Origin: Roseibium sp. HPY-6
Lineage (GTDB): Bacteria > Pseudomonadota > Alphaproteobacteria > Rhizobiales > Stappiaceae
Length of the DNA stretch: 64,000 nt
Assembly (NCBI RefSeq): GCF_040530035.1
Contig: NZ_JBEWCD010000001.1
Location: forward strand, 1,922,001 to 1,986,000
Reading direction: 5' to 3'
In this document: in pieces, positions 24,954-33,596 of the stretch
Numbering within the stretch: position 1 is the stretch's first letter
Layout of the letters: each line of letters opens with the position of its first letter
Notes under the pieces: generated by a model
The model's database searches: none
The model's input: the letters and a program-made list of their open reading frames with translations, nothing else
Told to the model about the DNA's origin: nothing
Made by a program: the position numbers and the translations under genes

Positions 24954-26798
24954 TCACCTCTGTGACACTTCGGCGAGCCTGACGAGGTTCAGGAATTCGG
25001 ACCGGTAACCGAAAGGGTCTTCACCACGATTGGCTTGTGCGAGCTGGGCGACATCGCCGAAGGTCCAGCTCTCCAGATAGTCGCTTCCTTTCAGCAATTG
25101 CCCAAATCCGGCAACAGAGGCGGCAAAAAGCGTTTCAGCTTGCGGAATGTCATGCGTATCAGCGCTCACCGGCGTTGTAACCAGCTTGCTCTTTTCAGCG
25201 CCGGGAACCTTGTAACGCAACTTCACGAAGGCAAGTTCTTCAGCTGGTGATTGACCGATCGGTTTTACTGACGGCACTTCGTTTCCATATCGAAGATCGG
25301 AGAATTTTCGGGCTGGCGATCCAACCGGCGTGACTTCATAAAGCGCTGTCACCGTATGCCCGGCCCCGATATCACCGGCGTCAACCTTGTCGTTTCTGAA
25401 GTCCTCGGTGTTGAGAGCACGGGTCTCGTAGCCGATGAGCCGATATTCGGCGACGGTTGCCGGATTGAATTCGACCTGGATCTTCACGTCCTGGGCGATC
25501 ATCGAAATTGAACTGACCACCTGGTCCACAAGCACTTTCCGGGCTTCCGACAAGGTATCGATATAGGCAGCGACACCCTGCCCGTTCTGCGCAAGCGTTT
25601 GCATGAGCGCGTCGTTGTAGTTCCCGCGCCCGAACCCGAGAACCGACAGCGCGGTCCCCTTTTCCCGCTGCTCGGAGATATAGCGTTTCAGGCTCTCCGT
25701 ATCCGAAAGACCGACATTGAAATCTCCGTCGGTGGCTAGAATAACGCGTGTCTGCTCACCTTCTCCGGTCATCTTCTCCGCAAGCGCATAAGCGCCCTTG
25801 AGACCTGCATGACCAGCCGTTGAACCGCTCGAGGTCAGCGCATCGATTTTTTGAAGGATGTGCGACTTCTCGGAGGCTTTTGTCGGTTCAAGCAGCACGC
25901 CCGCACTTCCTGCATAGGTCACGATCGCGACCTCGTCCTGATCCCGCAGGGACGCTAGCAAGAGCCGGAAGGACTGCTGCAACAGCGGCAGCTTGTTGGC
26001 GTCCGCCATGGACCCGGACGTATCTATCAGGAATACGAGGTTTTGCGGCGGAAGATCAGCGAGCGGAACCTTGTATCCCTGGATGCCGATCTGCATCAGT
26101 TTTGTATCCGCATTCCAGGGTGTATCGACAACAGAAACACTTGTGCGAAACGGCACGTCCCGATCGTCAGGCAGACTGTAATCGTACTTGAAATAATTGA
26201 TCATTTCTTCGACGCGAACTGCATCCTGTTTCGGCAAATACCCGCCATTGAGATTGGCTCTGACAAAGGAATAGGAAGCCGTGTCGACGTCGATGGAAAA
26301 GGTCGAAACCGGGTCGCTCGCAACCTGTTTCAGCGGAGTTGGTTGCGCGGACGCAAACCGTTCCCGATCTGTATTCAGCACAACGGGTCGGGAGGGATCC
26401 GAAGGTGCCAAGCGATGCTGAACGAGAGCTTCCTGAGAAGGAGCGAACCCTTCCAGAAGGCGCCCCGCGGATTGAGCAGAGTTGGTCTGGGAAAGCCCCA
26501 TGCGCTTGTTCGACGGTGTAATGGGCCGAACCTCGGCGGGTGTCAAAGCCGGAACGACGGTCGGTGACGGCGTCGGAACCTGCGTCACTGCATCGTTCAG
26601 TTCACTGTCGGCTTCCGTTCGAAGACGTGCGGAATCGAGCACAGTGTTTTGAGCTGCCTGCGGTGGTGCCTGCGTGCCTTTCTCGGCAAAAAGCTCTTTG
26701 AAATCGACGGTCTGCGTTGCCAGCGCAACGAAGGCCAGGGTCACGATTGAGGCCGAGCTGATCAGGACGGCCTTGGGGAGATGCTTACTGAGTGTCAT
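24954..26798 (-). CDS. von Willebrand factor A domain protein (YfbK-like)
   Basis: A 614-residue exported or membrane-anchored protein. An N-terminal hydrophobic segment (about 8-28) is followed by a long Pro/Ser/Thr-rich linker to about residue 165. Then comes the vWF-A N-terminal extension (STFSIDVDTASYSFVRANLN), the vWA domain with metal-site motif VFLIDTSGSMADANK and ILATDGDFNVG, and a C-terminal region (about 430-614) typical of YfbK-type proteins (DUF3520-like). GAGGA precedes the ATG. The metal site looks intact, so ligand binding is expected. It converges with the SH3/unknown pair. Binding partner unknown. Confidence 0.85.
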   Translation of the reverse strand: MTLSKHLPKAVLISSASIVTLAFVALATQTVDFKELFAEKGTQAPPQAAQNTVLDSARLRTEADSELNDAVTQVPTPSPTVVPALTPAEVRPITPSNKRMGLSQTNSAQSAGRLLEGFAPSQEALVQHRLAPSDPSRPVVLNTDRERFASAQPTPLKQVASDPVSTFSIDVDTASYSFVRANLNGGYLPKQDAVRVEEMINYFKYDYSLPDDRDVPFRTSVSVVDTPWNADTKLMQIGIQGYKVPLADLPPQNLVFLIDTSGSMADANKLPLLQQSFRLLLASLRDQDEVAIVTYAGSAGVLLEPTKASEKSHILQKIDALTSSGSTAGHAGLKGAYALAEKMTGEGEQTRVILATDGDFNVGLSDTESLKRYISEQREKGTALSVLGFGRGNYNDALMQTLAQNGQGVAAYIDTLSEARKVLVDQVVSSISMIAQDVKIQVEFNPATVAEYRLIGYETRALNTEDFRNDKVDAGDIGAGHTVTALYEVTPVGSPARKFSDLRYGNEVPSVKPIGQSPAEELAFVKLRYKVPGAEKSKLVTTPVSADTHDIPQAETLFAASVAGFGQLLKGSDYLESWTFGDVAQLAQANRGEDPFGYRSEFLNLVRLAEVSQR

Positions 26799-27363: not shown

Positions 27364-28440
27364 ATGGCGGATTTCAGCGCTCAAATTGAAAAATCCAAAC
27401 AGGAAGTCGCGGCAGCACAGCAGAAGATCAGCGAGCTGACCTCCAAGATCGAAACTGCACGATCCAAGCTCGACTCCGGCCAGGATATTTCCATTGATAT
27501 TGAAAATGCCACGCTGGACGATGTGCACTCGCATACCGAACTCATGGGCGCGAATATTGCCGAACTCATCATGGGCCTTGATGACGTAACGTCGAATTTT
27601 TCCAAAGACTTCGATGCCATGCGCTCTAAGACCGGCTGGGAAAGCTTCATTGGAATTTTTTCAAAGGCCAGGTCGGACAGCATTCGCCAGGAGCGCATGC
27701 GCACGGCGAGTATCGACGACAAGCTTCAGGACCTGATTTCCAAATCGAATGTCATCGGTCAGTTGCTGCAGGATCAGCTGAATACGCTGAACGAGCACAG
27801 CAAGCGCGTTGAGGGCAATTTGAGCGAAACACTCAACCAGCGCGAGCAGGCCGTCGCCGGGCTTGAAACCATCAAGAAAGATCTCCTGGCGATGGATCCG
27901 AAGATCATTGCACTGGAAAACAAGATCTCCGTCGAGACGGATGCTGCGGCCCGCACCAAACTGGAATCCGAGCTTGCCGAGTTGAACTCCGAGTACAACA
28001 GGCTCGCTCAGGAAGAACAGGTCAAACTCGCCGAAAGCCAGACGCTGGAGCGTTACATCGAAAAAGGCAAGACCTGGGTCGACAGTCTGCAGAACCAGGC
28101 CGCCACTCAGATGGTGCTGATCAACAAGCTGCAGACGGACACAAAACAACGCGTTGTCCTTTACGATGCCCTGGTCAAGTCACTGAAGACGGCGCAACAG
28201 CAAGACGTCGCGCACAAGATCAACGAGATCGGCGTCGCCACCGACAAGGAAGCGCAGTCTGCCATGGCAGCCATCGGTTCAGCCACAAATCAAAGTATGG
28301 CTGACATGATGGAAGCGCACGAAGATCATATGGTCTTTGCCCGCAAGGTTCTGGAAGAAAAGGCAAAGTCCGACGAACGTTTCGCACGCCGCTTCCAGCA
28401 GATCGTCGACAAGCACGACAAGAACGCCTACGGAGCCTGA
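27364..28440 (+). CDS. Coiled-coil protein, first gene of the AAA+ operon (TelA-like)
   Basis: A 358-residue, almost wholly helical, strongly charged protein with no signal peptide or membrane segment. Heptad-rich stretches cover about residues 1-35 and 120-260 (for example SELTSKIETARSKLDSG and ELAELNSEYNRLAQEEQ). The C-terminal half (QMVLINKLQTDTKQRVVLYD, then a helix with ATNQSMADMMEAH) recalls the helical core of TelA/KlaA toxic-anion-resistance proteins; this is a loose resemblance. The ATG at 27364 has GAAGGGG 4 bases before it; an upstream in-frame start at 27271 is AT-rich and not protein-like. It leads five tightly spaced genes. Confidence 0.75.
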   Translation: MADFSAQIEKSKQEVAAAQQKISELTSKIETARSKLDSGQDISIDIENATLDDVHSHTELMGANIAELIMGLDDVTSNFSKDFDAMRSKTGWESFIGIFSKARSDSIRQERMRTASIDDKLQDLISKSNVIGQLLQDQLNTLNEHSKRVEGNLSETLNQREQAVAGLETIKKDLLAMDPKIIALENKISVETDAAARTKLESELAELNSEYNRLAQEEQVKLAESQTLERYIEKGKTWVDSLQNQAATQMVLINKLQTDTKQRVVLYDALVKSLKTAQQQDVAHKINEIGVATDKEAQSAMAAIGSATNQSMADMMEAHEDHMVFARKVLEEKAKSDERFARRFQQIVDKHDKNAYGA

Positions 28441-28450
28441 GGGCTGAACG

Positions 28451-29584
28451 TTGGATCTGACACTCGATCACAGAGTCCTTGAAGAAGCACATGAGACGCG
28501 GCGCTACTTTGCCAAGTTCGAGCGCATCATCTCTCATCTTCAAGGTGTCGCAGACAGTGTCGTGTCGGAGAACACGGCACTGCTGTCCGAAATCCCGATC
28601 CTGAAGCAATATCTGGAAGCGCTCTCCGGGACATTCACTGCGTTGTCCTACAAGTACCTGCTTGCCGGACGTGTTTCGGACAAGCTGCCGAACCTTCTGA
28701 GCATTGACCGGCAGGACAGCGGCTTTCCGATCTACCAGGAACTTCTGGAGATGGCGAATGATGCCATGCAGGCGGAAAACCACCTGAGATCGCTTCCCGT
28801 CATGCGGGATCTGAAAATCGCGATGGTGAACCATATCCTGCGCGAGCAATCCACGCCGGTGAACCTCCAGTTCGCTGCGTCAGAACGCCAGTACTACGAG
28901 CAGTTGACGCAGGGAACCCTGTTTTGGGCGCGCAATGATCCCCGCCTCGCCTGGACCGGAAATGTCAGCGAGAAAAGGCGCAAGTACCGCATTCACTGGG
29001 CCGTTTACGACAGCCAGCAGAACATTCCGTTGATTTACGTCTTGGACCTTGAGGACAGCGGCCGACGGCCTCTGGCAAAGGACGAACGGCGCTGGCCGCG
29101 CGTGCAGGGTCATCTCGTTTCGCAGTCATCGGCCGGGCTGAAACTGCTGACGATCGCGCGCGGTTTCGATCACGACTTCGACGATCTTCACCCGAAGCGT
29201 CTGCGCCGCTTTTACGTGGGTCCGATGTACAGTCACACCTTCACCCAGCAATCAGGACCGCTGCGGGACGTGCTTTCGCAGGCAGGCCAGAAACCCGGTG
29301 AAGACTGGGCGCTTGCCTGGACGACGGAAACGCTGCTTTCCACGGGCACGCAGCAGGAATCGACCGGTTTCTTTTCGTCTGTCGAACGGCAGGTCTACGA
29401 TCTGGATCCTTTTGCCGCCGCCGGAGAAGGCGGACAGGATGCGGCCGGTCACACGCACCGGCAGCGCTCGCTCATCTTGCCACAACGTCCCTATCAGGTT
29501 CTGGAAGAACTCAACCCGCCGGGTTTTTCCAACATTCGCAAATATGCCGTAAGCCCTGCCGGCAAAATTCTCAGCTACAAATAG
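28451..29584 (+). CDS. Unknown protein, second gene of the AAA+ operon
   Basis: A 377-residue soluble protein. The N-terminal third is helical (THETR-type charged helices around VLEEAHETRRYFAKFERI). The rest is mixed alpha/beta with a conserved-looking core (KYRIHWAVYDSQQNIPLIYV, then HLVSQSSAGLKLLTIARGFD). No catalytic motif is recognised. The start is TTG at 28451, with GAGGGC 6 to 12 bases upstream, and it lies 10 bases after the coiled-coil gene stop. I recall a DUF6384-type annotation for genes in this position in related bacteria but could not confirm it. Confidence 0.7.
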   Translation: MDLTLDHRVLEEAHETRRYFAKFERIISHLQGVADSVVSENTALLSEIPILKQYLEALSGTFTALSYKYLLAGRVSDKLPNLLSIDRQDSGFPIYQELLEMANDAMQAENHLRSLPVMRDLKIAMVNHILREQSTPVNLQFAASERQYYEQLTQGTLFWARNDPRLAWTGNVSEKRRKYRIHWAVYDSQQNIPLIYVLDLEDSGRRPLAKDERRWPRVQGHLVSQSSAGLKLLTIARGFDHDFDDLHPKRLRRFYVGPMYSHTFTQQSGPLRDVLSQAGQKPGEDWALAWTTETLLSTGTQQESTGFFSSVERQVYDLDPFAAAGEGGQDAAGHTHRQRSLILPQRPYQVLEELNPPGFSNIRKYAVSPAGKILSYK

Positions 29585-29593
29585 GTTTCCGCC

Positions 29594-31543
29594 GTGACCG
29601 TTTCCAACGATTTAATGGAACTCAAGGAAGACAAGATCCGCGAAAAGTACGCTGCCGCGGAAGCCCTGCTTACCGGGTTTGATCATACACCCCGCATTGC
29701 TGCGAAACGCGAGCCGGACGTCGTTCAGGAACGCTCGCCCGGGCTTGGGACAAGAAGACGTTTCCGCTCGACAACACCCGGTCTTGTGACACGCTCGACA
29801 GCCCGACCGGAAGGTGTCCAGCTTTCAGCCAGAATTTTCGAGAGTGACGACGACGCACTCACGACCCCCCTGCAGGCGGGCGTCTTGCAGGCATTGCGCC
29901 GCGCGCTGTCCGTTGCGCAGGTGATGTCCGATCAGTTTGCCGAGCAGACAGGTCTTGCCGATCTCAAGCGCGCCAACCTTGCGGGCACGCTCGATGCCTC
30001 GCGTGCAGACAGGTTCCAGCAGCTCCTTTCAGCTTCCGCGCTCATTTCGCTGCATGTGTTTGCGAACATGACCGACTTTCTGATCTCCGGACTTGCCGCC
30101 GACACCGCAGACGCTGAAATACAATGTGGTGACGTTGAAGAAATCCTTTTGGACAATGACCAGCTGGCGCTCCACGGCACGCTTTGGGAACTGGACCAGG
30201 AGATCTCTGCAGCGCCGATCCAGACCGATGCCCAACTTGTCTCGCTGATTGCCTCGTTTTGCGAACAGCTGATGGAGAAGGTGACGCTCCGCGCCGAAGG
30301 TTCGGCACTGCTTCAATCGTTTTCCGAAGCCAGATACAGGGTTGAAGCGGACAATTTCGAAATCACCGGCTTCACGCCAGCCGCCAGAGCCCGCTCAACG
30401 TCTCTGACGATGGCCTTCAAGAAACCGGAGGAAGTGGTCGGCAATCACATTGCCAAATATCAGGCCATGAAGCTCGCCAAGATGCTCATGGCTTATGATT
30501 TCGAGCGCAAACTGAACCCGTTCGCAGAACTTGGCGGCTTCATCTTCACCTTCATGGGAGACGGAAAACCGGGGACCGGCAAGACAACGCTGATCCAGAT
30601 GATGGCGGGCTTGATCAACGATTACTGCACCAATGCCGGCTACGCTTTCCGCTATCAGAACCTGTCGACCGACAGCATTGACAGTTATCAGGGCAAGTCT
30701 GCCCAAAATGCCAAGGCGTTCATCAAGACGGTGACCGACCCGAATGTCATCGGCTTTGGGACCATCGACGACATCGACCAGCTGGCAGGCAAGCGCGGCG
30801 ACCGGCAGTCGTCGGCCGGACAGCTCGAAATCACCGCTGTCCTGATGGAAAGCTTTGCCGGTGCAAACACGGTGGTTCGCGGCAATTGCACATTCGGCAT
30901 GTTCTCGAACTATCCCGAAAACGTCGATGACGCCCTGCGTCAGCGCGCCGGTGCACGCTTTCTTGTCGACGGCCCCCAGACGCGGGAAGACTACATCGAC
31001 ATCCTCTATCTCCTGATGGGCAAGAACCATTCGATCCCGGTTGGCGAACACGAATTGTTCGAGGCCCAGGTCATCCAGAAAGCCGTTGCCGCATCTTACG
31101 AAAGCCATTCGCGCCCAAAGGAAGATGCCTTGGTGAGTGTCTTCGACAGGATCAGTAATTCCATCGGAGAGCTGGATACTATTGCCAAGCTCGGCGCTTA
31201 TCTGAAAGCGATCCAGGAGGCTGACGAACGCTTTACCGGGCGCGCCATCAAGAACATCACTGATGCCGTCAAGGTTCGTGCCATGGACTTTGAACTGCCG
31301 GACGAATGGATGGAAGACCCCGATCTGTTCCTGCTTAAGGACTATGAAACCAAGAAGTCCATGATCGCAGAACTTGCCCAGCCGATTTCCATCGAAATGG
31401 TCATCCAGGAAATCAACCGCTATGCAGACAGCGAATTCCGCTATGCTGACAAGTCCGATGAAGTCGCGATCGAAAACGCGGTGCGGGAGATGCAGAGGAT
31501 GGAAGAGGCCAAGCGCCGTTACATGGATCTTTCCCGCTCATGA
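29594..31543 (+). CDS. AAA+ ATPase, core of the five-gene operon
   Basis: A 649-residue cytoplasmic ATPase. About 300 N-terminal residues of unknown fold precede one AAA+ module: Walker A GKPGTGKT at residues 324-331, Walker B IGFGTIDDID with the acidic pair at 392-393, a sensor-1 region VRGNCTFGMFSNYPENVDD, and an arginine-rich segment DDALRQRAGARF (about 445-456) fitting an Arg finger. The C-terminal about 130 residues are helical. It resembles no recognised remodeller or MoxR/RavA protein in full. The start is GTG at 29594; it overlaps the next gene by ATGA. The neighbours are probable partners or substrates. Confidence 0.85.
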   Translation: MTVSNDLMELKEDKIREKYAAAEALLTGFDHTPRIAAKREPDVVQERSPGLGTRRRFRSTTPGLVTRSTARPEGVQLSARIFESDDDALTTPLQAGVLQALRRALSVAQVMSDQFAEQTGLADLKRANLAGTLDASRADRFQQLLSASALISLHVFANMTDFLISGLAADTADAEIQCGDVEEILLDNDQLALHGTLWELDQEISAAPIQTDAQLVSLIASFCEQLMEKVTLRAEGSALLQSFSEARYRVEADNFEITGFTPAARARSTSLTMAFKKPEEVVGNHIAKYQAMKLAKMLMAYDFERKLNPFAELGGFIFTFMGDGKPGTGKTTLIQMMAGLINDYCTNAGYAFRYQNLSTDSIDSYQGKSAQNAKAFIKTVTDPNVIGFGTIDDIDQLAGKRGDRQSSAGQLEITAVLMESFAGANTVVRGNCTFGMFSNYPENVDDALRQRAGARFLVDGPQTREDYIDILYLLMGKNHSIPVGEHELFEAQVIQKAVAASYESHSRPKEDALVSVFDRISNSIGELDTIAKLGAYLKAIQEADERFTGRAIKNITDAVKVRAMDFELPDEWMEDPDLFLLKDYETKKSMIAELAQPISIEMVIQEINRYADSEFRYADKSDEVAIENAVREMQRMEEAKRRYMDLSRS

Positions 31544-32928
31544 TGAGGCTGGTGAAAAACGGGCTGATGTACGGCAACCTGATGGAAGTGTCGTCGCCTT
31601 CCCTGGTGAACCGCTACAATCGGGCGCTTGAGCACCTGACGGGACGGCGGACCAGCCTTCAGGAATTCCACATTGATATCTCAGGGTTTTCTCCGGAGAT
31701 CGGAGACGAACTCGGCGATCCGCTCTATCTCAATCCCAACGGTTGCAATCGACAGTTCATCTTGTTGAATGTCGCTCAGAAAAGCGCACCGCTTCTTAAC
31801 GCGCACTTTTCAACATCGCGGTCGATCCTTCGTCGGTTCATTGACGACAATGAAGAGCAGCTCTTTGCCTTGTCTATTCGCGACGCCGTCGTCGGGGAAC
31901 TGGTCAATACCGTTTTCTCGATTGCGTCACCGGCGGACCTGTTCGACATCCGCACGATCGACGTCGAGGCGGATACGGTTGGTGGCCATGTCGAAGCCGG
32001 AGGTGAGCTGACCGAGAAAATCGACCGGTTCATGAACGAGCCGGACGGCTGGTGGGATGATGTTCTGATCGCTGAAATGGTCGAATTGTCCAAGCACACA
32101 GGCGACATCATTCGCACACCGATCGCGCTTCGGCCCCAGAGTTTCGAGCAAGGCAATTTTTACACACGCCACTACGGCGGTCTGTACATTTTCCAGGATG
32201 TAAAGAGAACAGCCTGCATCTCTGAAAAGCAGCAAGACATCGTGGACAATCTGCCCGTCAAACACGTCATGACACTCCAGGACCGGCGCGAAGTTGCATC
32301 GTTCCTTTCCAGAAACAAACTCGTCGAACCGATCACGCGCGCCGGCTCTGAACGTGCTGAGAGTATTTTGAGACAAAAGCTCGACTTCATTGTCGTCGAC
32401 ACGGCCGCCAACAGCGGTGAAGACCTTTCAAATGTCTCCCGGCGGGACCTGCGCTCGCTGAAGCGCAAGTATCATCGCCAGCTTCCGGATGAGTATCACG
32501 CACTGGAAAGGGTCGTTCGGCAGATCTCCAAGGGAACGAAAACTCCCCGCATCACGCATGAAAACCCGGCCTTTTTCTATTTGCTGCGGTCTGGCAACCA
32601 CCGGGACAAGCAACTGGTGAACATGTTGCTGTCGCAGCTGACACCGCTCGACTTCCGCCAGCTTTTCATCTGCCACAAGGATGCGTTTTACGCGCAATAC
32701 CAGAGCTGGAGCGAAGCGAAGAAAACCTATTGTGCCCAGTTCCTGGCCGAAGAGTATGTCGTCGATAAAGTCGGCACGCGCACCGAGTTGTTCGGTCCTG
32801 AGCCCGGGATGAGCGACGAACACGACCACTCCGATTACGGCTTCGGGCGAAATCAGGGTCCCTGGGGTGCCATTCCGAGGGATGACGACGACGATGATGA
32901 TGATGACGACGAGGACGACGACGACTGA
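31540..32928 (+). CDS. Unknown protein with acidic C-terminal tail, fourth gene of the AAA+ operon
   Basis: A 462-residue soluble protein with no recognised domain. It opens MMRLVKNGLMYGNLMEVSSP; a central segment FYTRHYGGLYIFQDVKRTA and a Lys/Arg-rich helix RRDLRSLKRKYHRQLPDEYH are notable. Residues 448-462 are ten Asp, one Glu and four Asp, coded by mixed GAT/GAC, so selection rather than a simple repeat probably maintains it. It overlaps the ATPase gene by 4 bases and the next gene by one (TGATG). I recall a DUF6638-type name for similar genes; unverified. Confidence 0.72.
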   Translation: MMRLVKNGLMYGNLMEVSSPSLVNRYNRALEHLTGRRTSLQEFHIDISGFSPEIGDELGDPLYLNPNGCNRQFILLNVAQKSAPLLNAHFSTSRSILRRFIDDNEEQLFALSIRDAVVGELVNTVFSIASPADLFDIRTIDVEADTVGGHVEAGGELTEKIDRFMNEPDGWWDDVLIAEMVELSKHTGDIIRTPIALRPQSFEQGNFYTRHYGGLYIFQDVKRTACISEKQQDIVDNLPVKHVMTLQDRREVASFLSRNKLVEPITRAGSERAESILRQKLDFIVVDTAANSGEDLSNVSRRDLRSLKRKYHRQLPDEYHALERVVRQISKGTKTPRITHENPAFFYLLRSGNHRDKQLVNMLLSQLTPLDFRQLFICHKDAFYAQYQSWSEAKKTYCAQFLAEEYVVDKVGTRTELFGPEPGMSDEHDHSDYGFGRNQGPWGAIPRDDDDDDDDDDEDDDD

Positions 32929-33596
32929 TGAAGTACATAAAATGGATCGTCGGCATCCCGTTGGTTCTGGTTGTCGTTCTGTTTGCCCACTACACGCTTC
33001 CGGGCCGCGACGTTGTGCGGATCGTGGGAACGGATGTCAAACGTATGGATATCGGGTCCTCGTCGCTTTTCTGGGCTGCCCCGGATGCTGGCACGAACCC
33101 GAACTGGACACGCGATGTCCGGTTCATAAACGCCGTATGGCCGAACGGGGAACCGCGGGTCTACCGCAATGAGGACACTGAATGGAGCTGGCCACCCTAC
33201 CTGAAGTTCAACAGCTCAAACGTCACGGCGCAGGCGCAGGACCTTGCGAAGAAGGATGGTGAGGTCTGGGTTGCGGTCACACACTATGGCTGGCGGATCC
33301 AGCTCTTCACGATCTTTCCGAACATCATCAGCATTCAGCAAGTCTCAGGGCCGAACGCGTTCCTGATACCCTGGTTCAACATCATCTTCTTTTTGACCCT
33401 GGCAGTCATCGCCTATCTGATCTTGCGCGTCGTTCGGGCTTTCAAACGCAGACGTATCGATCCTGTTGTCGAAAACATCGATGGATTCATCGATGATGTC
33501 GGCGAAAACGCGGAGCAAGCGCGCGCTCACGCGGAAAAACACGCAACTGCCGCCACCAGCGGCTTCCGTCGCTGGTTTAAACGCTGGTTCGGCTGA
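32928..33596 (+). CDS. DUF1523-like membrane protein, last gene of the AAA+ operon
   Basis: A 222-residue inner-membrane protein with an N-terminal segment (about 4-23), a periplasmic domain of about 120 residues starting YTLPGRDVVRIVGTDVKRMD, a second segment (about 146-168, FNIIFFLTLAVIAYLILRVV) and a basic cytoplasmic tail. The opening pattern fits the DUF1523 family known from Rhodobacterales, whose function is undescribed. The tail holds acidic and then basic stretches (ending SGFRRWFKRWFG). As the only membrane protein in the set, it may anchor the ATPase complex (inference). Confidence 0.78.
   Translation: MKYIKWIVGIPLVLVVVLFAHYTLPGRDVVRIVGTDVKRMDIGSSSLFWAAPDAGTNPNWTRDVRFINAVWPNGEPRVYRNEDTEWSWPPYLKFNSSNVTAQAQDLAKKDGEVWVAVTHYGWRIQLFTIFPNIISIQQVSGPNAFLIPWFNIIFFLTLAVIAYLILRVVRAFKRRRIDPVVENIDGFIDDVGENAEQARAHAEKHATAATSGFRRWFKRWFG

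Follow-up and report, generated by a model that had tools for sequence, protein, structure and literature searches.

We analyzed a 64,000-nucleotide stretch of the Roseibium sp. HPY-6 genome (contig NZ_JBEWCD010000001.1, positions 1,922,001 to 1,986,000; hereafter the window), in which an operon of five genes, labelled A to E in window order, is built around the AAA+ ATPase encoded by gene C. We found that A, B, C and D form one accessory unit, that E is part of a separate, more widespread membrane module, and that two junctions inside the unit, A–B and C–D, are hypervariable slots among relatives, occupied by changing sets of co-directional open reading frames (ORFs), here called cargo. We tentatively prefer to read the unit as an AAA+ machine that threads proteins and employs exchangeable effectors, possibly in conflict or defence (probability about 0.38). 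This reading rests on the positions of the slots, the make-up of their ORFs, the turnover of the cargo, its membrane bias and the displaced core-gene ends that lie beside it.

A four-gene core and a separable membrane module

The initial annotation had described five co-directional ORFs at 27364-33596, and all five were recovered, with gaps of 10, 9, -4 and -1 bases between successive genes. Most relatives carry an additional gene, F, between D and E, which is missing from that position in the window. The features of the block are as follows.

27364-28440, + strand: gene A, coiled-coil protein without a named family, core member (358 aa)
28441-28450, + strand: A–B junction, first cassette slot, empty in the window (10 bases)
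28451-29584, + strand: gene B (377 aa, TTG start)
29594-31543, + strand: gene C, AAA+ ATPase, an N-terminal part followed by the AAA domain (649 aa, GTG start)
30563-30586, + strand: Walker A of C, residues 324-331, GKPGTGKT
30686-30694, + strand: likely pore loop 1 of C, residues 365-367, Tyr-Gln-Gly
30767-30772, + strand: Walker B acidic pair of C, residues 392-393, Asp-Asp
31540-31543, + strand: C–D junction, second cassette slot, empty in the window (4-base overlap)
31540-32928, + strand: gene D, DUF6638 protein, core member (462 aa)
32881-32925, + strand: acidic tail of D, last 15 residues, confined to close relatives
32928-33596, + strand: gene E, DUF1523 protein with two membrane spans, separable membrane module (222 aa)

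We compared the block across 162 loci, comprising 80 named loci collected by C and 82 regions from further genomes chosen by C, D or E. The order A-B-C-D is the same in 136 of them, which were kept for further counts; the other 26 were excluded because one of A to D was missing or because C was identical to that of another locus. E is present in 122 and F in 113 of the 136, and some relatives hold A to D without E, among them all ten loci of one family (f24, presumed rhizobial from its repeats). In the family of genome G082, inferred to be Rhodobacteraceae, 69 of 149 genomes have D and 117 of 133 have E; within the latter set, all 60 D-bearing genomes have E, and so do 57 of the 73 that lack D. 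We therefore treat A to D as a single accessory unit and assign E to a different membrane module of wider distribution. Consequently, the five-gene unit proposed in the initial annotation is reduced to four genes that travel together in fixed order, E being no fixed member. The membrane-linked ATPase machine proposed there survives in part: the co-occurrence of A, B, C and D in fixed order makes an ATPase-centred machine likely, with membrane genes linked to it.

The core is patchy rather than rare. C was found in 16 of 36 congeners and in 4 of 24 genomes from other families of the order, with a single match in the window's own genome. In an even sample of 385 genomes of the class, 7 had a match above the cut-off to DUF6638 and 12 to DUF1523. 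All six genes are present in a genome of the same phylum from another class (L142 in G483), which suggests a possible lateral transfer. At L004 and L023, A and the first 118 residues of B were undetected, although C and D are 83-90% identical to those of the window; a deletion in one close relative is the likely cause. No D or E was detectable in L077, L086 and L095, and the DUF1523 genes of L145 to L148 (the match in L148 being weak) have neither A to D nor F within about 8 kb on each side.

D matches Pfam family DUF6638 (PF20343) over nearly its full length (residues 10-447, 622.6 bits). The DUF1523-like label previously given to E is borne out by PF07509 (residues 1-172, 212.8 bits, cut-off 23), as are its two membrane spans by a simple hydropathy scan, and F is a small two-span membrane gene of about 90 residues. 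We found no described function for DUF6638 or DUF1523 in the literature, nor for the block as a whole in a search that had most subscription journals outside its coverage. The extreme acidic tail that had drawn attention to D is real in the window and local in distribution, with at least 10 acidic residues among the last 15 in only 4 of the 136 loci, all four close relatives, and it is not supported as a functional element. The alignments behind these comparisons included 47 of 64 non-redundant relatives for D (L060 and L101 were dropped for in-frame stops, others to shorten the alignment), 62 of 68 for C, 35 of 55 for E, and all relatives for A and B.

Upstream of the block and on the opposite strand, the window encodes a YfbK-like von Willebrand A protein (24954-26798), whose counterpart in L021, the locus that stands in for the window, has relatives in 11 other loci.

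Two hypervariable junctions and their cargo

The initial annotation had named freely varying neighbours of the ATPase as evidence against a single system. Neighbours do vary, in a way it had not foreseen: A, B and D stay in place, and hypervariability is seen at two core-gene junctions. A junction length of at least 150 bases was found at C–D in 102 and at A–B in 68 of 136 loci, compared to 9 of 136 at B–C and none of 112 at either D–F or F–E. Nine further conserved co-directional pairs from the named loci served as a control, and their junctions reached at least 190 bases only once in 136 cases; by the same count, long junctions number 42 of 61 for C–D, 31 of 59 for A–B, 2 of 64 for B–C and 52 of 63 for D–E, the last because F lies there.

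The slots are filled with genes that read in the direction of the operon. Plus-strand ORFs cover at least 70% of 91 of 100 C–D and 54 of 65 A–B junctions, and minus-strand ORFs reach that coverage in 11 and 19 of them, respectively. The G+C content of the slot ORFs is on average 6 points below that of the core, and a 4-base overlap with the start of the next core gene is found for 63 of 132 C–D and 18 of 68 A–B ORFs. Turnover is high: the 206 slot ORFs (68 in A–B, 6 in B–C and 132 in C–D) fall into 128 sequence clusters, 104 of which are single. Even between loci whose C proteins are at least 95% identical, homologous cargo was found in just 14 of 121 occupied C–D pairs and 12 of 118 A–B pairs, these close pairs being largely from Ruegeria and not independent. 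Nearly empty C–D junctions occur at 95-96% identity in C (L220, -1 base; L144, 9 bases). Even if the core does not serve defence, any explanation of the operon has to account for the two hypervariable slots, which are a measurable fact.

The cargo is suggestive in content and mostly dark. A membrane span is predicted in 61 of 68 A–B ORFs, mostly as two spans, and in 84 of 132 C–D ORFs, where two (33) or three (34) spans are commonest; only 4 of 76 shadow ORFs, the control, have one. The C–D ORFs that Pfam recognizes include DUF559 (7), AbiJ_NTD4 (3), putAbiC (2) and Mrr (1), among others. One C–D family of four members bears two R-x4-H motifs, described as the RNase signature of HEPN proteins (PMC3710099). 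The earlier statement that the operon contains no nuclease or toxin holds for the window and fails for its relatives, in which Mrr-, HEPN- and Abi-type proteins occupy the C–D junction. A putAbiC-like model found strong matches only in its own four rows, a circular result, and five weak matches away from D.

The commonest C–D cargo, at 17 loci, is a family of three-span proteins. We had considered this cluster as a possible GC-rich repeat and rejected that interpretation for all but one doubtful member (L171), which was excluded from the family alignment. At 60 bits or more, the three-span model matches 30 of 149 genomes in the family of G082. Nineteen are D-bearing, with the match just upstream of D in each (in G927, contig ends divide it); the model itself includes 10 of the 19 among its rows, making the result partly circular, and only the 11 D-less genomes are independent. 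We inspected 10 of the latter and found E adjacent to the match in all 10 and F detected in 5, with no A to D at an E-value of 0.001. The presence of this cargo beside E without the motor indicates that it goes with the membrane module, and its role may lie with E and F instead of C.

A separate GC-rich, inverted-repeat-like element lies 85-95 bases before D in eight loci (L040, L044, L058, L081, L099, L163, L164 and L170). In 4 of the 6 genomes searched, its core with at most one mismatch has further copies outside the slot, which exceed the control counts only in places; in G870 the slot copy is the sole copy.

Displaced ends of core genes lie beside the cassettes in 5 of 183 junctions, where they are starts of B or D in four cases and the end of C in one. 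In 3 of 75 A–B junctions, a truncated second start of B (about 18 to 25 codons) is found between two cargo ORFs, the first of which overlaps that displaced start by 4 bases. Among 108 C–D junctions, one (L183) has a truncated start of D after a cargo ORF, with a 1-base overlap, and in one (L061) the final 60 codons of C are repeated between two cargo ORFs. Mid-gene core segments and reversed junctions, used as controls, gave 0 such matches. Displaced ends would be the expected remnant if an incoming cassette had brought a new start of the next gene along with it.

Rhs and contact-dependent growth inhibition (CDI) loci are characterized by displaced cassettes and by a large exported carrier with a variable C-terminal tip. 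Our loci share with them the hypervariable cassettes at a fixed site and the displaced partial core genes beside tandem cassettes; they differ in that each cassette is a gene of its own within an operon and not the C-terminal tip of a large exported protein. The likeness invites an explanation in which the slots encode immunity or recognition proteins against the toxins of neighbours, as in kin discrimination or bacteriocin immunity, and the AAA+ core assembles or removes them. Such a role would suit the predominance of small, variable membrane proteins with two or three spans. It would not account for the soluble nuclease-like and HEPN-like proteins that share the C–D slot, and no large exported carrier with a variable tip was found among A to E, F having about 90 residues (toxins elsewhere in the genomes were not searched for). 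We therefore regard an immunity function as quite improbable.

The ATPase and its putative partners

C matches the Pfam AAA family (PF00004) at 48.4 bits (cut-off 21.2), and its ATPase motifs are retained in 132 to 136 of the 136 loci. Walker A is intact at residues 324-331, as previously claimed, and the GxxxxGKT pattern is kept in 134 relatives. The claim of an intact Walker B requires amendment: the acidic pair is in place at residues 392-393, but the motif ends in Asp-Asp, not Asp-Glu, as it does in 135 of 136 relatives, the remaining sequence being without the pattern. A YQGKS loop is conserved in 135 of 136 relatives, and we take its residues 365-367 to be a pore loop by comparison with other AAA sequences; the arginines after sensor 1 (NYPE..DDALRQR, conserved in 132) are presumably arginine fingers. 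Judged from these motifs, C is a classical-type AAA+ ATPase by fold, sharing Walker A, the arginines after sensor 1 and the aromatic-x-Gly loop with classical AAA ATPases and differing from them in the Asp that replaces Glu in Walker B and in an unassigned N-terminal part. The nearest solved structure by sequence is an i-AAA protease domain (5ubv), and the best PDB E-value is just 0.0006. The nearest database protein, 97% identical, comes from an uncultured Roseibium. Several entries sourced from the Joint Genome Institute name C 'energy-coupling factor transporter ATP-binding protein EcfA2', which is misleading for a classical AAA protein.

In PADLOC, C matches TRIP13 best (E 1.1e-5), which we count in favour of the exchangeable-effector reading. 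It also raises the alternative that the block belongs, as a variant, to one of the described anti-phage systems, for example the type III cyclic-oligonucleotide-based anti-phage signalling system (CBASS), where C would be the TRIP13-like remodeller; CBASS effectors, too, can be nucleases or membrane proteins that replace one another at one position. Several results speak against this assignment. The match is weak and local (23 bits, residues 323-499), and A, B, D and E have no PADLOC match below E 0.09. No nucleotide cyclase was listed for the five proteins at E-values up to 1 in PADLOC, whose library contains nucleotide cyclase models. Type III CBASS has a HORMA protein, and the structural matches of the predicted model of B are all weak. 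That model combines a helical N-terminal part with a beta-rich part at about residues 161-344, and the latter may weakly resemble tunnelling-fold (T-fold) enzymes. A CBASS variant is thus very improbable.

For A, the mean column identity over 52 sequences is 80%, compared to 78% for C, and no membrane span is predicted. The initial annotation had seen a loose likeness of A to TelA (PF05816), a helical protein of similar length, which we reject: aligned with a clean TelA profile, A reached an hhalign probability of 0.7%, and the reversed controls 0.3%. TelA did not appear for the window protein in the Pfam profile comparison, and among 52 relatives of A, with E-values up to 10, PF05816 was not one of the 25 most frequent of 85 families. 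B fared no better as a TelA candidate, with PF05816 found in 2 of 60 members at just E 0.063, below the cut-off. None of 41 near relatives carries PF05816, which occurs in 12 of 142 genomes of the class; in G082, C, D and E share a contig, and a true TelA is encoded on a different one.

A proposed machine with exchangeable effectors

In the mechanism we propose, A, B, C and D would form a cytoplasmic AAA+ machine in which C threads or pulls on a protein by means of its conserved aromatic loop, with the almost invariant coiled coil A, together with B and D, as fixed partners or substrates. E, plus F where present, would constitute an inner-membrane module that shares the locus and is more widespread. 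To this the A–B slot would add exchangeable small, usually two-span membrane proteins, and the C–D slot either two- or three-span membrane proteins or proteins of HEPN, Mrr or Abi type. Once triggered by a stress such as phage infection, the core might control the slot proteins as replaceable effectors, or restrain those that are toxic. The window would then represent a cargo-free form, either with the core and E working by themselves or with the effector function lost.

Several observations weigh against this reading. The core evolves slowly for a defence sensor, as the column identities of A and C show, and the close pairs that document cargo turnover are not independent. The window's own slots are empty, and all 7 loci in which C shares at least 83% identity with that of L021 likewise have no cargo. 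Most cargo has no family: 12 Pfam families were recognized in the C–D cargo, compared with 84 in control neighbours. PADLOC matches were likewise no more frequent in the cargo, with 20 families, than in a control of 132 neighbouring ORFs of matched length, with 37, and we rejected PADLOC enrichment as evidence of defence. The seven DUF559 ORFs were discounted as evidence of effectors, because in that lineage, presumed rhizobial, inverted repeats border the insertions we inspected, which look like a dispersed element. Such repeats flank the C–D insertions of L218, L219, L221 and L222, with a DUF559-like ORF in L218. The three-span cargo is tied to E, and our literature search found no experiment on the block.

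Among the control neighbours, PADLOC matched mad2 (twice), mad3 and mad8 of the methylation-associated defence system (MADS), so a defence system may lie near at least one related locus.

Many of the same observations would be expected if the core were a general envelope or protein-quality machine, in line with the envelope role suggested in the initial annotation, and its junctions a permissive parking site, where mobile genes gain expression from the operon. Slowly evolving A and C, cargo-free versions in the window lineage and in L144 and L220, the occurrence of E in 117 of 133 genomes of one family, the lack of PADLOC enrichment and the tie of one cargo family to E all agree with this explanation. 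A neutral site, however, would not select for membrane proteins as the A–B slot does (61 of 68), and insertions avoid D–F, F–E and mostly B–C. The core is also patchy, being present in 16 of 36 congeners and, as judged by D, in 69 of 149 genomes of another family. We consider the permissive-site explanation nearly as probable as the motor with exchangeable effectors, which we prefer. A more specific proposal, that A to D are a previously undescribed AAA+ conflict or defence system, in which recombination close to the starts of B and D exchanges the contents of the slots and a slowly evolving motor drives fast-changing membrane and RNA- or DNA-cutting effectors, is in our view rather unlikely.

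If the exchangeable-effector reading is right, marine Rhodobacterales and their relatives would hold an unrecognized modular system with a constant motor and an effector that varies by species, and two Pfam families of unknown function would gain one. The slots would also be a source of candidate small membrane effectors, and their exchange a natural experiment on cassette replacement inside an operon.

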